Assembly (NCBI GenBank): GCA_945787805.1
Contig: CALZID010000007.1
Location: forward strand, 31,012 to 95,011
Origin: an uncultured Clostridia bacterium
GTDB taxonomy: Bacteria > Bacillota > Clostridia > Oscillospirales > Acutalibacteraceae
Direction of reading: 5' to 3'
DNA: 64,000 bases
Shown: positions 4,202 to 57,579 of the stretch, one piece after another
Numbering within the stretch: position 1 is the first letter of the stretch
Layout: every line of letters begins with the position of its first letter
The notes under the pieces: model-generated
Seen by the model: only the letters and a program-made list of their open reading frames with translations
Told to the model about the DNA's origin: nothing
Databases searched by the model: none
Made by a program: the position numbers and the translations under genes

Positions 4202-4223
4202 TTTTTGAAAAGGAGGTTTGAAT

Positions 4224-6650
4224 ATGAAAATATTGCAGATAAACGCAGTATACGGCGTGGGCAGTACCGGTGTAATAGTTGAAGATTTGCATAATCTGTC
4301 TTTGTCAAAGGGAATAGACTCTTATGTTGCATATTCAACCTCACCGAAAAATCATGATGAAATTGTCAACGGCTATAAAATCGGAAATGTTTTAAGTAAA
4401 AAACTTCACGCAGTGCTTTGCAGGGTTAGCGGAAAGCAAGGTTATTTCTCGCGATATGATACGAAAAAACTGATAAATCACATTGAAAAAATTAATCCGG
4501 ATATTATTCATCTGCACAATCTTCACAGTAACTATATTAATGTCAATATGTTGCTTCATTATATTGCAGAAAAAAATATCGCAACCGTGATTACGCTTCA
4601 CGACTGTTGGTTCTATACAGGGGGATGTTTCTATTATGAAAATGCCGACTGTAAAGGTTGGATGAAAAATTGCGGTAACTGTCCGAAGCGTTATCTTGAA
4701 ATTCCCGCTTTCATTAAAGACGGTTCTGCCGATATTCTGGCCGACAGAAAAAAATATGTGGGCGATATAAAAAATCTCACTCTTGTGGGCGTTTCAAACT
4801 GGATTGCCGATGAAGCAAGACAATCTTTCTTAAAGGATAAAAACATAGTTACAATATATAACGGAATTGACACAGAGTGGTTTTCATATACTCCGTCAGA
4901 TTTCCGTGAAAGATATAATTTACAGAATAAATTTGTAATATTGGGCGCTGCAAATAAATGGCTTAAACCCGAAAACAGCGAAACTCTTGAATATTTTTCA
5001 AAAAATCTTCCCGAAGATTGTGCACTGGTGATAATCGGGTGTGTAAAAGACGACAAAGACAGGCTTCCCCGGAATGTTGTGGCAATAGATTATGTCAGTG
5101 ACCGTGATGAACTCAGAAAAATATATTCTGCATGTGATGTTTTTGCAAACTGCACCAGAGAAGACACATTGTCGCTGATAAATATCGAACCTCAGTCCTG
5201 CGGAACTCCGTCAGTGACTTATGACAATACAGGGGTAAAAGAAACGGTTGACAATAAATGCGGATTTTCAGTTCCTACGGGGGATTACAAACTGTTCTTT
5301 GAAACAATTATGAAAATCAAAGAAAAGGGCAAGTCCGCCTTTTCCGCCGACTGCTCAAAATGGGCAAGAGCAAAGTTCGACCGTGATGAAAATTACGAAC
5401 AGTATATTGAATTATATAATGAGATTATCAGAAAGAAAAAAGATAATAAGAAAGTAATGCATATCAACGCAGTTTACGGCGTAGGCAGTACAGGTGTAAT
5501 AGTTGAAGATTTGCACAATTTGGCACTGTCAAAAGGCATTGACTCCTATGTTTCATATTCCACTTCACCTATTAGTGCCGAAAAAATTACAAACGGTTAT
5601 AAAATCGGTTCGCTTATCAGCAAAAAACTTCACGCAGTACTTTGCAGAATCAACGGAAAACAAGGCTATTTTTCACAATTCGACACAAAAAAACTGATAA
5701 AACACATCGACAAAATTAAGCCCGACATAGTTCATCTTCATAATTTACATAGTAATTATATTCATCTGAATATGTTGTTGGACTATTTAGATAGGAAAAA
5801 TATAAAAACAATTATCACCTTGCATGATTGTTGGTTTTATACCGGCGGTTGTTTTCATTATACAGCCGACAATTGTTCAAAGTGGTTGGAAAAATGCGGT
5901 AACTGTCCCAAAAAAAATGGAGATACACCGGCATATTTCAAAGATAATTCTGCCAAGATTCTTAGCGACAGAAAAAAATACTTTGGCAAAATAAAAGATT
6001 TAACTGTGGTGGGTGTGTCAGATTGGATTGTGGAAGAATCACAGCGAACATTTCTCAGTAACAGAAAAAAATGTACAATTTATAATGGTGTGGATACAAA
6101 ATTCTTTGTCAATACACCGTCGGATTTTCGTAAAAAACATAATTTAGAGAATAGATTTGTTATTCTCGCTGCTGCAAACAAGTGGCTTAAACCTATAAAT
6201 AAAAAGACTTTTGATTATGTAACAAAAAATCTTCCGGAAGATTCGGTTATTGTAATGATTGGTTGTAACGAGTCACAAAAATCGCAATTACCGTCAAATG
6301 TGATTCCCCTTGATTATATAAGCAGCCGTGATGAGCTCCGCAAGGTTTATTCCGCTTGCGATGTGTTTGCAAACTGCACAAGAGAAGAGTCAATGTCACT
6401 TATAAATGTTGAAACACAATCTTGCGGAACACCTACTATCACTTATGAAAATACAGGGGCAAAAGAAACAGTTGACGGTAAATGCGGCTTTTCGGTTGAA
6501 AATGGTGATGAAGTAAAGTTCTTAGAAACCATTCTTAAGGTTAAAGGAATAGGCAAAGAGAATTTGTCTGATGCTTGTCGCAAATGGGTTGAAGAAAATT
6601 TTGACCGTGATAAAAACTACGAAAAATATATTGATTTATATCGTGAATGA
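4224..6650 (+). CDS. Tandem-duplicated fused glycosyltransferase (two GT4 copies in one chain)
   Basis: The start is taken as the ATG at 4224 because AGGAGG lies at 4211-4216; an in-frame TTG at 4218 is less likely. The 808 residues are two complete GT4-type units laid head to tail with an offset of 408 residues (1224 bases). INAVYGVGSTGVIVEDLHNL appears at residue 6 and again near 414. ITLHDCWFYTGGCF, the GNCPK cysteines, TIYNG and FANCTRE all recur at the same spacing. The usual GT4 EX7E motif is intact in unit 2 (Glu at residue 722), while unit 1 has Asp at the first position (residue 314). The linker is a short Lys-rich stretch without a stop. Either unit could be the working enzyme, or both could add similar sugars in sequence. 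Confidence 0.9.
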   Translation: MKILQINAVYGVGSTGVIVEDLHNLSLSKGIDSYVAYSTSPKNHDEIVNGYKIGNVLSKKLHAVLCRVSGKQGYFSRYDTKKLINHIEKINPDIIHLHNLHSNYINVNMLLHYIAEKNIATVITLHDCWFYTGGCFYYENADCKGWMKNCGNCPKRYLEIPAFIKDGSADILADRKKYVGDIKNLTLVGVSNWIADEARQSFLKDKNIVTIYNGIDTEWFSYTPSDFRERYNLQNKFVILGAANKWLKPENSETLEYFSKNLPEDCALVIIGCVKDDKDRLPRNVVAIDYVSDRDELRKIYSACDVFANCTREDTLSLINIEPQSCGTPSVTYDNTGVKETVDNKCGFSVPTGDYKLFFETIMKIKEKGKSAFSADCSKWARAKFDRDENYEQYIELYNEIIRKKKDNKKVMHINAVYGVGSTGVIVEDLHNLALSKGIDSYVSYSTSPISAEKITNGYKIGSLISKKLHAVLCRINGKQGYFSQFDTKKLIKHIDKIKPDIVHLHNLHSNYIHLNMLLDYLDRKNIKTIITLHDCWFYTGGCFHYTADNCSKWLEKCGNCPKKNGDTPAYFKDNSAKILSDRKKYFGKIKDLTVVGVSDWIVEESQRTFLSNRKKCTIYNGVDTKFFVNTPSDFRKKHNLENRFVILAAANKWLKPINKKTFDYVTKNLPEDSVIVMIGCNESQKSQLPSNVIPLDYISSRDELRKVYSACDVFANCTREESMSLINVETQSCGTPTITYENTGAKETVDGKCGFSVENGDEVKFLETILKVKGIGKENLSDACRKWVEENFDRDKNYEKYIDLYRE

Positions 6651-17426: not shown

Positions 17427-18605
17427 ATGAAATTAGATTATTCAGATATTAAATTTAAAGATAACGGTAAGTTAAAGCTTTTGATTATTGTGGGTACTCG
17501 TCCCGAAATCATTCGTCTTGCCGCTGTTATAAATAAGTGCCGAGAATACTTTGATTGTATTCTTGCACACACAGGTCAGAATTACGACTATAACCTTAAC
17601 GGTGTATTTTTTAAGGACTTAAAGCTTAAAGACCCCGATGTTTATATGGACGCAGTGGGTGATGACCTTGGCGCAACAGTCGGCAACATTATTAACTGTT
17701 CATATAAGCTGATGGCAGAAATCAAGCCGGATGCAATGCTTATTTTGGGTGATACAAACTCCTGCCTTTCAGCAATTCCCGCAAAAAGACTTCATATTCC
17801 CATATTTCACATGGAAGCAGGAAATAGATGTAAAGACGAGTGTCTGCCCGAAGAAACAAACAGAAGAATTGTTGACATTATTTCCGATGTTAATCTTGCA
17901 TATTCAGAGCATGCAAGAAAATATCTTCACGAATGCGGTCTGCCGAAAGAAAGAGTATATGTAACAGGCTCACCAATGGCAGAAGTGCTTCGCAGTAATC
18001 TTCAAGAAATAGAAGCGTCAAATATTCATTCTAAATTAGGCCTTGAAAAAGGCAGATATATTCTTCTTTCCGCACACAGAGAAGAGAATATTGACACAGA
18101 AAAGAATTTCTTGTCGCTCTTCAATGCAATCAATAAAATGGCAGAAAAATATGATATGCCAATTCTGTATTCTTGCCACCCGAGAAGCAAGAAAAGACTT
18201 GAAACAAGCGGATTTAAACTTGACAAAAGAGTTATTAAGCATGAGCCGCTGGGCTTCCACGATTACAATTGCTTGCAGATGAATGCCTTTGCAGTTGTTT
18301 CCGACAGCGGAACATTGCCCGAAGAAAGCTCATTCTTCACATCAATAGGCAAATCATTCCCGGCAGTTTGTATCCGTACATCAACGGAGCGTCCCGAAGC
18401 GCTTGATAAGGCTTGTTTTGTTCTTGCAGGTATTGATGAAAAATCACTTCTTCAAGCAGTGGACACAGCAGTCAGTATGAATTTGAACGGCGACTTGGGA
18501 ATTCCCGTGCCCGATTATGTTGACGAAATTGTATCAAATAAGGTTGTCAAGCTCATTCAGTCATATACCGGTGTAGTTGACAAAATGGTTTGGAGAAAAT
18601 ATTGA
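17427..18605 (+). CDS. capG: CapG-type UDP-N-acetyl-6-deoxy-L-talosamine 2-epimerase
   Basis: A 392-residue member of the UDP-GlcNAc 2-epimerase (WecB) family: LIIVGTRPEIIRLAAV at the N-terminus, the catalytic-site region DTNSCLSAIPAKR and FHMEAGNRCKDECLPEETNR, SAHREENID, and VVSDSGTLPEESSF near the C-terminus. Following capE and capF, the natural role is the last step, giving UDP-N-acetyl-L-fucosamine for the transferases of this locus. It starts two bases after the capF stop and is followed by a strong terminator. A plain WecB role is less likely given the gene order. Confidence 0.92.
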   Translation: MKLDYSDIKFKDNGKLKLLIIVGTRPEIIRLAAVINKCREYFDCILAHTGQNYDYNLNGVFFKDLKLKDPDVYMDAVGDDLGATVGNIINCSYKLMAEIKPDAMLILGDTNSCLSAIPAKRLHIPIFHMEAGNRCKDECLPEETNRRIVDIISDVNLAYSEHARKYLHECGLPKERVYVTGSPMAEVLRSNLQEIEASNIHSKLGLEKGRYILLSAHREENIDTEKNFLSLFNAINKMAEKYDMPILYSCHPRSKKRLETSGFKLDKRVIKHEPLGFHDYNCLQMNAFAVVSDSGTLPEESSFFTSIGKSFPAVCIRTSTERPEALDKACFVLAGIDEKSLLQAVDTAVSMNLNGDLGIPVPDYVDEIVSNKVVKLIQSYTGVVDKMVWRKY

Positions 18606-18618
18606 TATAAACAAAATA

Positions 18619-18667
18619 AAAAGTGAGTAATTCAAATTCTAAGAATTACTCACTTTTCGGCTTTTTT
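18619..18667 (+). terminator. Intrinsic terminator after capG
   Basis: A perfect 15-base-pair stem (18619-18633 with 18643-18657, core AAAAGTGAGTAATTC) closes the polysaccharide locus. A T-run at 18662-18667 directly abuts the repeat element that starts at 18668. Confidence 0.85.
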
Positions 18668-18908
18668 GGGGTTAGGAAAAAATGCGTAGAATGGACAAAC
18701 TGAGCGATAACAAGGCTTTTGCCTTGTTATCGGTTACCCGACGGCGTACAAAGGTACGCCGAGAGGCGAAGTTTGTTCATAGCATAAAACATTATTTTTT
18801 ATCTGTTTTTTGATTTTTATTATGTTTATTTGATTTAATGCTGTTTTGGGGTATTAAAAAACCTTTATATATGGAGTTTTATGCGGTCTACACTTTTTTT
18901 ACAACCCC
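18668..18908. repeat. Structured 241-base dispersed repeat, copy 1
   Basis: Nearly identical to 56986-57225: the first 142 bases differ at one position, a 31-32 base middle part is diverged, and the last 67 bases differ at two positions. It begins GGGGTTAGG and ends ACAACCCC; the ends form an imperfect terminal inverted repeat of about 22 bases. Inside is a branched fold: an 11-pair outer stem (18691-18701 with 18770-18780, one G-T pair) encloses a perfect 11-pair hairpin with TTTT loop (18706-18731) and a perfect 8-pair hairpin with AAAG loop (18742-18761). It looks like a small non-autonomous mobile element or structured RNA gene. A short frame inside it is not kept at its C-terminal end between copies. 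Confidence 0.85.
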
Positions 18909-18918
18909 TTTTTTATAA

Positions 18919-19581
18919 TCATTTTCTTTTTTTGCCCAATAATCTGTCCAGTACATAGAGCAGATACCCCATTGCTATGTAAATAACGGATAGCACAAGA
19001 ATTATCAATACGCCCTTTCCCGTGCCCAACAAATCAAAATCCATAAAAGGGTAGGGGTAGCGACTCGAAGTACCGCCGAAACCGCTGAACATAAGTGGGC
19101 TTGTTTCCGCCCGAATAACCGCAAAAATAAGATACGCAATGGGTATTAAAGTCCATACCAGAGGGTCAAAGCTTTTAAAATTGCCTTTGGGTGTAAGCAG
19201 AAGATAATCGAAAAATACCATTAAAGGTACCACGGTGTGAACAAGCCGGTTAGATATTATAAGCATGGGCGAAAAATATCCGCTAGCTTCCATATTTCCC
19301 GACAAAAGCAGATGATATGCAATTCCGGTAAGGGCGATGCACATAACTATTGCGCCTTTTACCACCGCTTTTTCCGATTTTGGGCGCATAATCGCAAGAT
19401 AAGAAAAATACAAAAAACATATAAAATTTGAAATCATTGTGTAATAGCAGGAAAGCATAATAAGATTATCTTTGCTTCCTGTTTGCGATATTGCGGCATA
19501 CTGTAATATAATTCCTGCCTCACAAAGAACAAGAAAAACAAATCTGTAAATTGATTTGAATATGTTGTTTTTAATATACAA
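18919..19581 (-). CDS. Pr6Pr family membrane protein
   Basis: A 220-residue protein with six clear hydrophobic helices. The pattern SNRLVHTVVPLMVFFDYLLL followed by YPYPFMDFDLLG matches the Pr6Pr family (related to eukaryotic FAR-17a/AIG1-like membrane proteins), of unknown biochemical role in bacteria. It is a single gene, convergent with repeat copy 1, and divergent from the methyltransferase at 19871 across 289 bases. A good Shine-Dalgarno, GGAGG on the minus strand, lies just before the start. Confidence 0.75.
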   Translation of the reverse strand: MYIKNNIFKSIYRFVFLVLCEAGIILQYAAISQTGSKDNLIMLSCYYTMISNFICFLYFSYLAIMRPKSEKAVVKGAIVMCIALTGIAYHLLLSGNMEASGYFSPMLIISNRLVHTVVPLMVFFDYLLLTPKGNFKSFDPLVWTLIPIAYLIFAVIRAETSPLMFSGFGGTSSRYPYPFMDFDLLGTGKGVLIILVLSVIYIAMGYLLYVLDRLLGKKRK

Positions 19582-42789: not shown

Positions 42790-43021
42790 GAATATATGAA
42801 AGACTGTGACCGAAAAGAGTAGCAAAATTCTTTTTTATCAGAGATAACGGGCCGTCGGCTGAAAGCCCGTTTTAAAAAACTTTTGTGAAGTGCGTTCGTG
42901 AGTCGGTGTGGGGAAATACACACCCGTTAACTGCGTTAAAGTAATTGAGTTATAAATGCGAAGTGGAACCGCGATTATTCGCCTTCGTCTGTATTTTTAC
43001 AGATGAAGGCGTTTTCTGTTT
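42790..43021 (+). promoter_or_regulatory. T-box riboswitch of cysE-cysS, Cys-specific
   Basis: The T-box core AAGTGGAACCGCG lies at 42961-42973. The terminator that competes with it is CGCCTTC...GAAGGCG at 42980-43012 with the T-run at 43013. Stem I features precede it, including GAGATAACGGGCC and GCTGAAAGCCC. A TGC triplet at 42891-42893, in the context GAAGTGCGTT, is the probable specifier, matching Cys and both downstream genes. Uncharged tRNA-Cys should favour read-through. Confidence 0.92.
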
Positions 43022-54837: not shown

Positions 54838-55584
54838 ATGTATAATTTCTTTGTTGACGGCGACAGCAGAAAAGATAATTGCTATTTTATTACCGGCAGC
54901 GACTTTAACCATATTAAAAATGTTTTGAGAATGCGTGAGGGCGATACATTTCTTGTCAGTGATAACGGTATCAGCAGTCTTTGCGAAATCAAGAGCTTTG
55001 ATAATGAAGCGGTAGTGGCAAAAATATTAGAAGAAAACTATCAGAATACAGAATTGCCCATTAAAATATACCTTTTTCAAGGACTTCCCAAAAGCGACAA
55101 AATGGAATTGATTATCCAAAAATGCGTTGAACTGGGCGTATATGAAATTATCCCCGTGCAAATGAACCGTTGTGTAGTAAAAATCGAAGAAAAGAAAAAG
55201 CAATCAAAGGTTTCCCGTTGGCAAGCAATTTCCGAAAGCGCCGCAAAACAGAGCAAGAGAACGATTATACCTAAAATATCAGATGTCTTATCATATAAAC
55301 AAGCGCTGGCAAAAGCCGAAGAGCTTGATTTATTGTTAGTACCCTATGAAAGTAAAAACGGAATGGCAGACACAATTTCTGCATTGAAAGAAATAAAAGA
55401 AAATATGTCCATAGGTGTTTTTATCGGTCCCGAAGGCGGATTTGACGAAAGTGAAATTGAAAGCGCAAAAGATATAAACGGAAAAATTATATCTCTCGGC
55501 AAGAGAATTCTGCGCACAGAAACTGCCGCAATGACCGCCGTGTCGATGTGTATGCTTTATGCAGAAATGAATTTGAGTGAATAA
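54838..55584 (+). CDS. rsmE: 16S rRNA m3U1498 methyltransferase
   Basis: A 248-residue SPOUT methyltransferase. The N-terminal PUA-like part (HIKNVLRMREGDTFLVSDNG) binds RNA. The C-terminal knot has YLFQGLPKSDKMELIIQK, VIPVQMNRCVVK, then the SAM-binding FIGPEGGFDESEIE and SLGKRILRTETAA. Length and motifs are standard. The stop TAA overlaps the region of the next gene's start, so the two RNA methyltransferases are coexpressed. Confidence 0.95.
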   Translation: MYNFFVDGDSRKDNCYFITGSDFNHIKNVLRMREGDTFLVSDNGISSLCEIKSFDNEAVVAKILEENYQNTELPIKIYLFQGLPKSDKMELIIQKCVELGVYEIIPVQMNRCVVKIEEKKKQSKVSRWQAISESAAKQSKRTIIPKISDVLSYKQALAKAEELDLLLVPYESKNGMADTISALKEIKENMSIGVFIGPEGGFDESEIESAKDINGKIISLGKRILRTETAAMTAVSMCMLYAEMNLSE

Positions 55585-55585
55585 A

Positions 55586-56938
55586 ATGAAACAATTACCC
55601 ATAGAATTTGAAAACAGAATGAGAACTCTTTTGGGCGACGAATTTGAAGCTTTCAAGAGCTCATTGAATGAGCCGCCTATAAGAGCATTCCGTGTGAATA
55701 CAGACAAAATTTCATTAGAAGATTTTACAAAAATCAATCCCTTTAAGAGTGAAAAAATTCCCTATGTTGAAAATGGTTTTTATTTTGATTTTGACGGAAT
55801 AGGCAATCACCCATATCACCATGCGGGAATGATTTATGTGCAGGAGCCTGCCGCAATGGTACCAGTTGAGAGTATTGAAATAAATCCTGATTGGAAAGTG
55901 CTTGACTTGTGTGCCGCACCCGGCGGCAAGAGCAGTCAAATCAAAAATAAATTGGGTGAAAACGGAGTTTTAGTATCAAATGAGATTGTTCCGTCAAGAT
56001 GCAAAATTTTAACGGGTAATATTGAGCGAATGGGTTTTAAAAATACGGTAACAACCTGTATGCACCCGCAAAAACTCGCTAAGGAATATGAAAACACCTT
56101 TGATATGATAATGGTTGACGCACCTTGCTCGGGTGAAGGAATGTTCAGAAAAGAAGAGATTGCCATTGATGAGTGGTCCCTCGAGAATGTGAAAATGTGC
56201 GCCGAAAGACAAGGGGAAATTCTCGATTGTGCCGTGAAAATGCTTAGAAGCGGTGGGTATATCGTCTATTCAACCTGTACTTTTTCTCTCGAAGAAAACG
56301 AAATGACGGTTGATAATTTCTTAATGCGTCATACTGATTTTGAAATTTGCCCTGCAACCGAAAGGGTGAGAGAAAATACTGCCGACGGAATTTATTTTGA
56401 CGGTTGCAAATGTGAAAACATAAATTATGCTCACCGTTGCTATCCGCATAAGACAAAGGGAGAAGGTCAATTTGTTGCAGTTTTAAAGCATAAAGGTGAC
56501 TGCTTTGACTATTCTTCCGTTATACAAAGCACCGAAAAACTTGATAAAGTGTTAATTGATTTTCTAAATGATACACTCACAAACTATGATGAAAACAAAG
56601 TGAAGCTTTATAACGGTAACCCCGTTTATTTCACACCGAATTTTGCGGTGCGAAAGGGCTCGGCATTCTCTTGCGGAGTGACAATAGGCGAAATAAGAAA
56701 AAATTATATTCAACCCCATCATCAGTTTTTTATGGCAATGGGTAAAGATTTTAAACGGAAAATCGAGCTTTCTGCCACAAGCGCTGAAATCAAAAAATAT
56801 CTTCATGGCGAAGAATTTGAAACAGATTGCTCAAACGGCTGGGCGTCCGTTTTAGTTGACGGTTGCACCGTCGGGGGAGTAAAAGTTTCAAACGGCAAGG
56901 CAAAAAATCACTATCCGAAAGGACTCAGAACAAAATAA
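55586..56938 (+). CDS. NOL1/NOP2/Sun-type rRNA m5C methyltransferase (RsmF-like)
   Basis: ATG 55586 begins one base after the rsmE stop; GTG 55577 is an in-frame alternative. The 450-residue protein has the SAM site VLDLCAAPGGKSSQI, the catalytic Cys pair in VDAPCSGEGMFRKEE and YSTCTFSLEENE, and a C-terminal extension that resembles the RsmF/YebU group. It methylates cytosine C5 in rRNA. The exact position is not readable from sequence. Confidence 0.92.
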   Translation: MKQLPIEFENRMRTLLGDEFEAFKSSLNEPPIRAFRVNTDKISLEDFTKINPFKSEKIPYVENGFYFDFDGIGNHPYHHAGMIYVQEPAAMVPVESIEINPDWKVLDLCAAPGGKSSQIKNKLGENGVLVSNEIVPSRCKILTGNIERMGFKNTVTTCMHPQKLAKEYENTFDMIMVDAPCSGEGMFRKEEIAIDEWSLENVKMCAERQGEILDCAVKMLRSGGYIVYSTCTFSLEENEMTVDNFLMRHTDFEICPATERVRENTADGIYFDGCKCENINYAHRCYPHKTKGEGQFVAVLKHKGDCFDYSSVIQSTEKLDKVLIDFLNDTLTNYDENKVKLYNGNPVYFTPNFAVRKGSAFSCGVTIGEIRKNYIQPHHQFFMAMGKDFKRKIELSATSAEIKKYLHGEEFETDCSNGWASVLVDGCTVGGVKVSNGKAKNHYPKGLRTK

Positions 56939-56940
56939 AA

Positions 56941-56985
56941 CAGGGGCTGTAAAAAAACTTTTGTTTTTTTACAGCCCCTGTTTTT
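56941..56985 (+). terminator. Terminator of the rRNA methyltransferase operon
   Basis: A perfect 18-pair stem: CAGGGGCTGTAAAAAAAC (56941-56958) with 56963-56980, then five Ts that abut repeat copy 2. Confidence 0.9.
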
Positions 56986-57225
56986 GGGGTTAGGAAAAAA
57001 TGCGTAGAATGGACAAACTGAGCGATAACAAGGCTTTTGCCTTGTTATCGGTTACCCGACGGCGTACAAAGGTACGCCGAGCGGCGAAGTTTGTTCATAG
57101 CATAAAACATTATTTTTTATCTGTTTTGTTTTTTTATTACTCTTATGTGATTAAACATTGTTTTGGGGTATTAAAAAACCTTTATATATTGGGTTTTATG
57201 CGGTCTACACTTTTTTTACAACCCC
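56986..57225. repeat. Structured 240-base dispersed repeat, copy 2
   Basis: Same element as 18668-18908 in the same orientation. Shared blocks are 56986-57127 and 57159-57225. All stems of the branched fold are unchanged. The single substitution in the first block falls in an unpaired stretch between the second hairpin and the outer stem, which fits selection on the fold. It follows directly on a terminator T-run, as copy 1 does. Confidence 0.85.
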
Positions 57226-57228
57226 CTT

Positions 57229-57579
57229 TTATTGCTTCCATTCTATGAATTTATAAGCTTCAAGTGCGCAGAAATACTGTGCAAGCCGCTCATAAAGCGG
57301 TTCAGCCTTATCGCCGAAATGTTCTTTAACAAGTTTTCCGATTTGATAAATATTCCTTTGTCCGTCAATTAAAGGCCAGATAAAGCTGCCCGTTTCGTCA
57401 AGGTGAATGTAACTGAATTTTGGCTTTTTGAGAATCAACTGAAACGCTTTGTTGATAAAACCCTTGTTTTCGATTTCAATAATTATTTCACCGTTGCCGT
57501 TTTTTGACCAGTTGAGTTTTTCTCTTTGCACAGGGATTTTATCAAGATAATTATCTGCGTATATTTTTTTATTCATCAA
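57229..57579 (-). CDS. PqqD-like protein
   Basis: A 116-residue protein whose C-terminal 85 residues match the PqqD/RRE fold pattern: PKFSYIHLDETGSFIWPLID, then RNIYQIGKLVKEHFG, then EPLYERLAQYFCALEAYKFI. PqqD-type domains bind precursor peptides of modified-peptide pathways, but no radical-SAM or precursor gene is nearby. Its start overlaps the end of the OPT transporter gene, so translation is coupled. ATG at 57576 is an alternative start. Its role here is unknown. Confidence 0.8.
   Translation of the reverse strand: MMNKKIYADNYLDKIPVQREKLNWSKNGNGEIIIEIENKGFINKAFQLILKKPKFSYIHLDETGSFIWPLIDGQRNIYQIGKLVKEHFGDKAEPLYERLAQYFCALEAYKFIEWKQ

Follow-up and report, generated by a model that had tools for sequence, protein, structure and literature searches.

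In this study, we describe a strongly folded repeat that is present twice in the 64-kb stretch of DNA analyzed here (the window), at 18668-18908 (copy 1, 241 nt) and at 56986-57225 (copy 2, 240 nt), both on the + strand and both located between convergent genes. Copy 1 lies between an open reading frame (ORF) on the + strand at 17427-18605 and an ORF on the − strand at 18919-19581, the stop codon of which is 10 nt from the right end of the repeat. Copy 2 lies between an ORF at 55577-56938 (+ strand) and an ORF at 57229-57579 (− strand), with the stop codon only 3 nt from the right end. The two-copy element claimed by the sequence-only reading is real, and its boundaries are exact to the base. 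In agreement with that reading, the first 142 bases of the copies differ by a single mismatch at position 97 (A/C), which falls within a linker, the last 67 bases differ by two mismatches, the middle segment has diverged between both, and the terminal sequences GGGGTT (left end) and AACCCC (right end) are present and paired in the predicted fold. The left end of copy 2 is abutted by a companion hairpin, H0 (AAAACAGGGGCTGTAAAAAAAC..GTTTTTTTACAGCCCCTGTTTT; 56937-56984, + strand), which is the sole H0-type hairpin in the window, whereas copy 1 has on its left side a terminator-like hairpin unrelated to H0 (18619-18657, + strand). Elsewhere in the window, a T-box leader (RF00230) at 42797-42989 is the sole Rfam match at the gathering score, and a 300-nt direct repeat of 78% identity (4221-4520 and 5445-5744) is contained within one long ORF (4218-6650).

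The + strand of copy 1 can be divided into a conserved 5' domain, a variable middle and a 3' end. The outer stem, drawn from the fold and from the complementarity of the left and right ends, pairs 18684-18690 with 18887-18893. It is followed by stem P2 (18693-18701, partner 18770-18778), hairpin H1 with a TTTT loop (18705-18732), hairpin H2 with an AAAG loop (18743-18760) and stem P4 (18782-18790, partner 18876-18884), which closes the variable middle (18791-18875). The right end, TTTTTTTACAACCCC (18894-18908), is almost identical to the 3' arm of H0. Copy 1 has a predicted folding energy of −83.6 kcal/mol on the + strand, compared to −52.0 ± 4.2 for shuffled sequences, none of which was as low in 200 trials. 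A chance repeat was ruled out by this stability together with the 21 near-full-length copies found in the genome. In a covariation alignment of the 5' domain, made of 19 sequences from the window's own genome (G000) and genomes G008, G009, G031 and G045, the three-helix structure pairs in 96.0% of the alignment cells, and both partners have changed in 12 of its 26 pairs, giving a covariation score that was reached by none of 500 shuffles. The changes on both sides fall in 7/9 pairs of P2, in 4/9 modelled pairs of H1, which is absent from some relatives, and in 1/8 pairs of the strongly conserved H2. Shifting the pairing partners abolished the covariation signal, and further pair types showed no excess over shuffles (194/500 shuffles reached the count). 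Covariation had been suggested as a check on the branched fold, and it was found. The ends also belong together. When each left end was matched to its own downstream region in 92 elements, from which tandem repeats and locus ends had been removed by hand, the mean match was 23.2 versus 18.3 for the left ends of other elements; the maximum over 2000 permutations of the left ends was 19.3, and the own left end was the best or tied in 19/92 elements. This permutation of own versus swapped ends was used as the control because the right ends had been assigned through their complementarity to the left ends.

The − strand of copy 1 is also stable (−76.0 vs. −37.3 for its shuffles), and for the whole copy it is the − strand that stands further from its own shuffles (z of −9.6 vs. 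−7.5 for the + strand). The conserved fold, nonetheless, belongs to the given (+) strand, which is the strand antisense to the gene at the right end. Among 97 aligned relatives (96 distinct rows used), there were 148 G-U cells versus 16 A-C cells, with two columns contributing 98 of the 148 G-U cells, and the core was more stable on the + strand in 83/87 sequences with RNA parameters and in 85/87 with DNA parameters. In our reading, the motif CUGAGCC/GGCGAAG with its tandem G-A mismatches also fits the + strand better. The evidence on the fold is equally compatible with action as RNA and as single-stranded DNA.

The search of the whole genome that had been proposed for this element was productive. 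A BLAST search of G000 (1.84 Mb, 98% complete) with copy 1 found 21 near-full-length copies of 89-100% identity, in addition to incomplete copies, several of them running up to the end of a contig. The 20 copies that were aligned are 220-241 nt long, non-coding and interspersed, and their variable columns are concentrated in the middle (47/86, compared to 11/123 in the 5' domain and 6/33 in the 3' end). Among 58 relatives searched, of which 35 genomes belong to the same genus, alignment over nearly the whole copy was found in only G008 (91%) and G031 (76%). G005 has fragments only, G006 and G009 have divergent relatives of the repeat, and the remaining matches within the genus are short and lie largely in the AT-rich middle. 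G045, which belongs to another family, has matches at no fewer than 13 places, which was the number of candidates scored. Truncated or collapsed copies also occur. In G005, two loci (L077 and L078) retain little more than the initial 36 nt or so of the left end, flanked by an H0-like hairpin in front and another hairpin behind, and a 60-nt mini form in G000 (L024, C8:37504-37573) starts from the internal TTTTGGGGTATT, keeps the right end and lies directly behind H0.

It seems that the folded domain is only part of what is repeated in this genome. H0 precedes the left end in 23 of the 24 G000 copies examined, copy 1 being the single exception. The H0 core, CTGTAAAAA..TTTTTACAG, occurs 32 times in G000, 30 times in G045, five times in G031, twice each in G008 and G768, and a single time in each of G005 and G014. 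It was absent from G009, which has a divergent relative of the repeat, and from the copy-rich genomes G470 and G734, and in carriers poor in H0 the copies often come after hairpins of other sequence. Since the core is missing in some carriers, H0 as defined here is not universal. We considered whether the flanking hairpin is a generic host terminator, and this was dropped for G000, where the core is repeated 32 times and is found in none of 11 same-genus genomes that lack a near-complete copy of the domain. Twenty-four of the 32 cores in G000 adjoin a full or partial domain and eight are solitary; each solitary H0 has the end of an inward ORF on both sides, at 58 nt or less on one side and 17 nt or less on the other. 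The outer base pairs of H0 differ between copies, often with compensating changes, and the core is constant. The 3' arm of H0 closely matches the right end of the element in sequence, so that the domain is flanked by direct repeats. In keeping with this arrangement, an H0-like hairpin followed by the right end alone was found as a remnant at three places, the 5' arm of H0 is fused to the right end at one place, and the arms of two further solitary hairpins resemble the right end. The element as first drawn, without H0, may be incomplete.

The placement of the copies follows the right end. In G000, the right-hand ORF points at the element in 18/19 copies, 13 of which have the stop codon of this ORF at a distance of 0-11 nt. 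In a wider set, the right neighbor is directed inward in 98/111 cases. Of 77 cases with an inward gene, 60 have the right end within −12 to +15 nt of its stop codon, where 14.7 would be expected from a uniform position. The preference holds when there is room to spare, as the right end was at the stop codon in 25/34 cases with a left gap of 100 nt or more, versus 2.1 expected. The left end was 15 nt or less from an inward stop codon in only 2/56 cases. These placement counts come from 89 of 121 rows, after dropping those lacking a right end or a neighbor on either side, with mechanical ORFs taken as neighbors and with related and tandem copies counted separately. The intergenic location of the copies can be explained by selection against gene-disrupting insertions, but the closeness of the right end to the stop codon, seen even where space is ample, cannot; it calls for either a preferred insertion site or some role at that position. 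On the other side, all 24 G000 copies examined with a fixed left-end string have a hairpin before the left end in one orientation, and T makes up 51% of the last ten bases before the left end versus 28% in control windows. In the wider set, a hairpin lies directly left of the left end in 59/117 copies versus 65/508 random windows; part of the copies with no adjoining hairpin come after another copy. Reading outward from the gene, the stop codon usually comes first, then the element in reverse complement and then the hairpin. A/T runs flank the copies on both sides, and a constant target-site duplication beyond these runs was not seen.

Unoccupied sites, which had been suggested as a check on mobility, were found in relatives for two copies. 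At the site of a copy in G621, the element is replaced in genomes G484 and G581 by a short hairpin of unrelated sequence that retains the T run and is followed by a conserved stretch downstream; the matched flanks are 78-88% identical, the small upstream gene has its homologue in G484, and G581 lacks this gene as well as the element. At the site of a copy in G484, both neighbor genes are present in G641 and G536 with a short hairpin in place of the element, G581 likewise has both neighbor genes but a different hairpin, and G621 has a hairpin of the G581 type with decayed copies of the domain beyond it. Native hairpins vary among the relatives at both sites, so that H0 and the domain may have arrived either together or separately. 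When unoccupied sites were sought for the two copies of the window, the gene order was not kept in relatives.

The repeat extends well beyond the genus. A covariance model built on the 5' domain gave hits within the order in 32/394 genomes (18/168 genera) and within the class in 56/391 genomes (33/223 genera); both scans included the window's genome and scored up to nine candidates per genome, and the copy numbers are lower bounds. A deep search with the model found 22 copies in G000, 46 in G470, 12 in G734 and 17 in G768. A pattern scan of named genomes, which favors members having H1, returned at least 111 stretches, and the matches listed are nearly all from Clostridia, Oscillospiraceae or Ruminococcus metagenome-assembled genomes; among the 80 of 111 stretches listed, many genomes have a host gut site in their names. 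Members of the family vary in their middle segment and in whether they have H1. The shortest are about 120 nt long, lack stem P4 and in some cases stand in tandem, and G470 has tandem arrays with a period of about 240 nt. Right ends, sought mainly in the 220-350 nt next to the 5' domain, were located for 107 of 121 hits and give element lengths of 143-303 nt. More distant end matches were marginal. There were at least six longer readings of 360-481 nt (L118, L140, L147, L151 and two of L182), some of which are the ends of neighboring copies, and no longer gene-bearing version was recognized with right ends sought mostly in the 220-350 nt range. No fitting family was found in Rfam at the gathering score for the window or for 20 relative loci, any further matches being weak and sub-threshold, in agreement with the earlier statement that no named family fits. 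Phage and plasmid records had no match to the repeat by BLAST, IMG/VR had no match to one exact pattern of it, and nothing recognizable as the repeat was found among openly licensed PubMed Central papers.

Taken together, these findings bear out the proposal of the sequence-only reading that this is either a MITE-like non-autonomous mobile element or a multicopy structured RNA, given the copies, the covariation, the unoccupied sites and the lack of an Rfam family. That reading was to be given up if no further copies and no compensatory changes were found, or if a known family matched; further copies and covariation are present, and there is no match to a known family at the Rfam gathering score. 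The mobile-repeat half of the proposal is well supported, on the basis of distribution and sites rather than of observed movement. We favor, with a probability of roughly 0.7, a non-autonomous mobile repeat of gut Clostridia that enters behind stop codons, is amplified in trans and is joined to H0 in G000. What was observed directly is the copy number, the patchy spread, the site, the orientation, the fold, the association with H0 and the two pairs of occupied and unoccupied sites. Carriage by many sampled species in some families would also be expected from vertical inheritance.

The unit that moves would be the folded domain of about 120-300 nt, in G000 usually joined to the terminator-like H0. 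It would insert into the short stretch past a stop codon, mainly antisense to the gene, which would be left intact, and H0 at the new site could act as the terminator of that gene. Amplification in trans would depend on an enzyme located outside the element, which probably recognizes either one strand in its folded form or the end sequences, which are alike. The near-identical stretches in the right end and in H0 may lead to deletion of the domain and to tandem amplification; one sequence fits the product of such a domain deletion. It is also conceivable, and in our judgment unlikely, that the element travels as a folded single strand of DNA or RNA with its own terminator, replacing native terminators past stop codons through an enzyme that reads the fold as integron integrase reads attC, which would make it a new kind of mobile element.

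The same closeness to stop codons, together with the strong structure of both strands, could be read as a sign that the repeat serves the host as a 3' untranslated or antisense RNA element that tunes the termination of translation, mRNA decay or convergent transcription, with its spread being secondary. Repetitive extragenic palindromes (REPs) located no more than 15 nt from a stop codon have been reported to stall ribosomes (PMC12306157). However, most of the sampled genomes of the genus lack a near-complete copy, the conserved fold belongs to the strand antisense to the gene, and truncated or collapsed copies exist, so that we regard a host-serving role as improbable. The REP comparison also raises the question of mobilization by Y1 (RAYT) transposases, for which the five Y1_Tnp matches in G000 (C3:99118, C2:114260, C6:91486, C6:68439 and C3:4446) might speak, being the most among 40 genomes, with three of them above the curated cut-off. 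Yet PF01797 (Y1) was found in 8/20 carriers and in 8/20 other genomes, which shows no association, and 12 of the 20 carriers had no match. Among the copy-rich genomes, G362, G242, G094, G124, G162 and G141 had no Y1 match, and the 320-nt flanks of the five G000 genes contain no element ends and only one stray CTGTAAAAA, which makes a REP-type element very doubtful here. Some of these Y1/RAYT-like genes in G000 adjoin GC-rich short repeats of another kind.

In G000, the copies follow terminator-like hairpins in one orientation, as group IIC introns do (PMC4424553), and this could suggest a retroelement in which a structured RNA is placed after terminators by a reverse transcriptase. Nevertheless, the 98% complete G000 has no match to PF00078, and the retron arrangement of a reverse transcriptase beside the RNA gene was thus not found there. 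PF00078 was present in 7/20 carriers and 6/20 other genomes, which indicates no association, no Rfam group II intron match was found in the window or in 20 relative loci, and it is the right end rather than the left that tracks stop codons, making this origin highly improbable. A further system to be weighed is that of integrons, in which the integrase reads the folded bottom strand of attC sites located just behind stop codons. A recombinase working in this manner just past stop codons would account for a conserved fold antisense to the gene and beside its stop codon and for a sequence that changes while the structure stays, and the lack of both the element and the preceding small gene in G581 at the G621 site is what gain or loss of a gene-plus-site unit predicts. 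At the G484 site, however, the neighbor gene is present in all four relatives, including those lacking the element there, and no attC core sites were recognized in the element. The likeness to attC is one of strand and placement only, and we consider such a system hardly probable.

Judged by descriptions of placement and paired ends, the nearest known kind would be, as our best reading, the BOX, RUP and SPRITE repeats of Streptococcus pneumoniae. These are described as small repeats taken as non-autonomous and enriched between convergent genes, with SPRITE looking terminator-like and BOX and RUP having paired ends (PMC3049150; PMC10969869). They share with the Clostridia repeat a small and strongly folded form, enrichment between convergent genes, clustering and insertion into one another. 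The Clostridia repeat, in contrast, has a covarying branched core, lies mainly antisense at stop codons, is joined in G000 to a terminator-like hairpin with right-end-like arms and is present across many families of Clostridia. REP and BIME elements, the subject of PMC12306157, PMC2817692 and PMC3733652, are palindromes of 20-40 bp linked to RAYT genes, and one report places 446 of 4,072 predicted REPs of Escherichia coli within 15 nt of a stop codon, compared to 260/496 in an earlier count (PMC12306157). They are likewise extragenic, palindromic and multicopy, and some of them lie no farther than 15 nt from a stop codon, whereas the Clostridia repeat is branched, about 240 nt long and not associated with Y1, and only H0 taken alone approximates the size of a REP. 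Group IIC introns, which are located after intrinsic terminators (PMC4424553), resemble the repeat in that position; they need a ribozyme and a reverse transcriptase, and there is neither an Rfam intron match for the repeat nor a reverse transcriptase match in G000. The Caulobacter intergenic repeats (CIR) have a conserved two-armed RNA fold and in some cases paired ends (PMC2229807), a likeness that extends to the repeat as compared by fold description alone. In common with MITEs, the repeat is short, non-coding, interspersed and multicopy, and it has terminal inverted repeats, GGGGTT/AACCCC plus longer imperfect pairing, with its own ends matching better than swapped ones.

A repeat with a conserved branched fold is thus carried by about one in seven of the sampled genomes of the class, with no fitting Rfam family at the loci tested. 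It alters the 3' ends of ordinary genes, accompanies terminator-like hairpins and coincides with the ends of contigs. Because the conserved fold belongs to the antisense strand relative to the gene, the repeat is a test case for structure-directed mobility, and a pathway that inserts elements precisely after stop codons would be useful to know. A second short repeat was noted during this work, a hairpin of about 70 nt (ACAACAAGGTTC...CCCG..CGC/GCG..CGGG...TTCTTAT) that is present in G015, G045 and G536 (loci L220, L064 and L341) and that, at L064, lies inside one element copy, within its middle segment.
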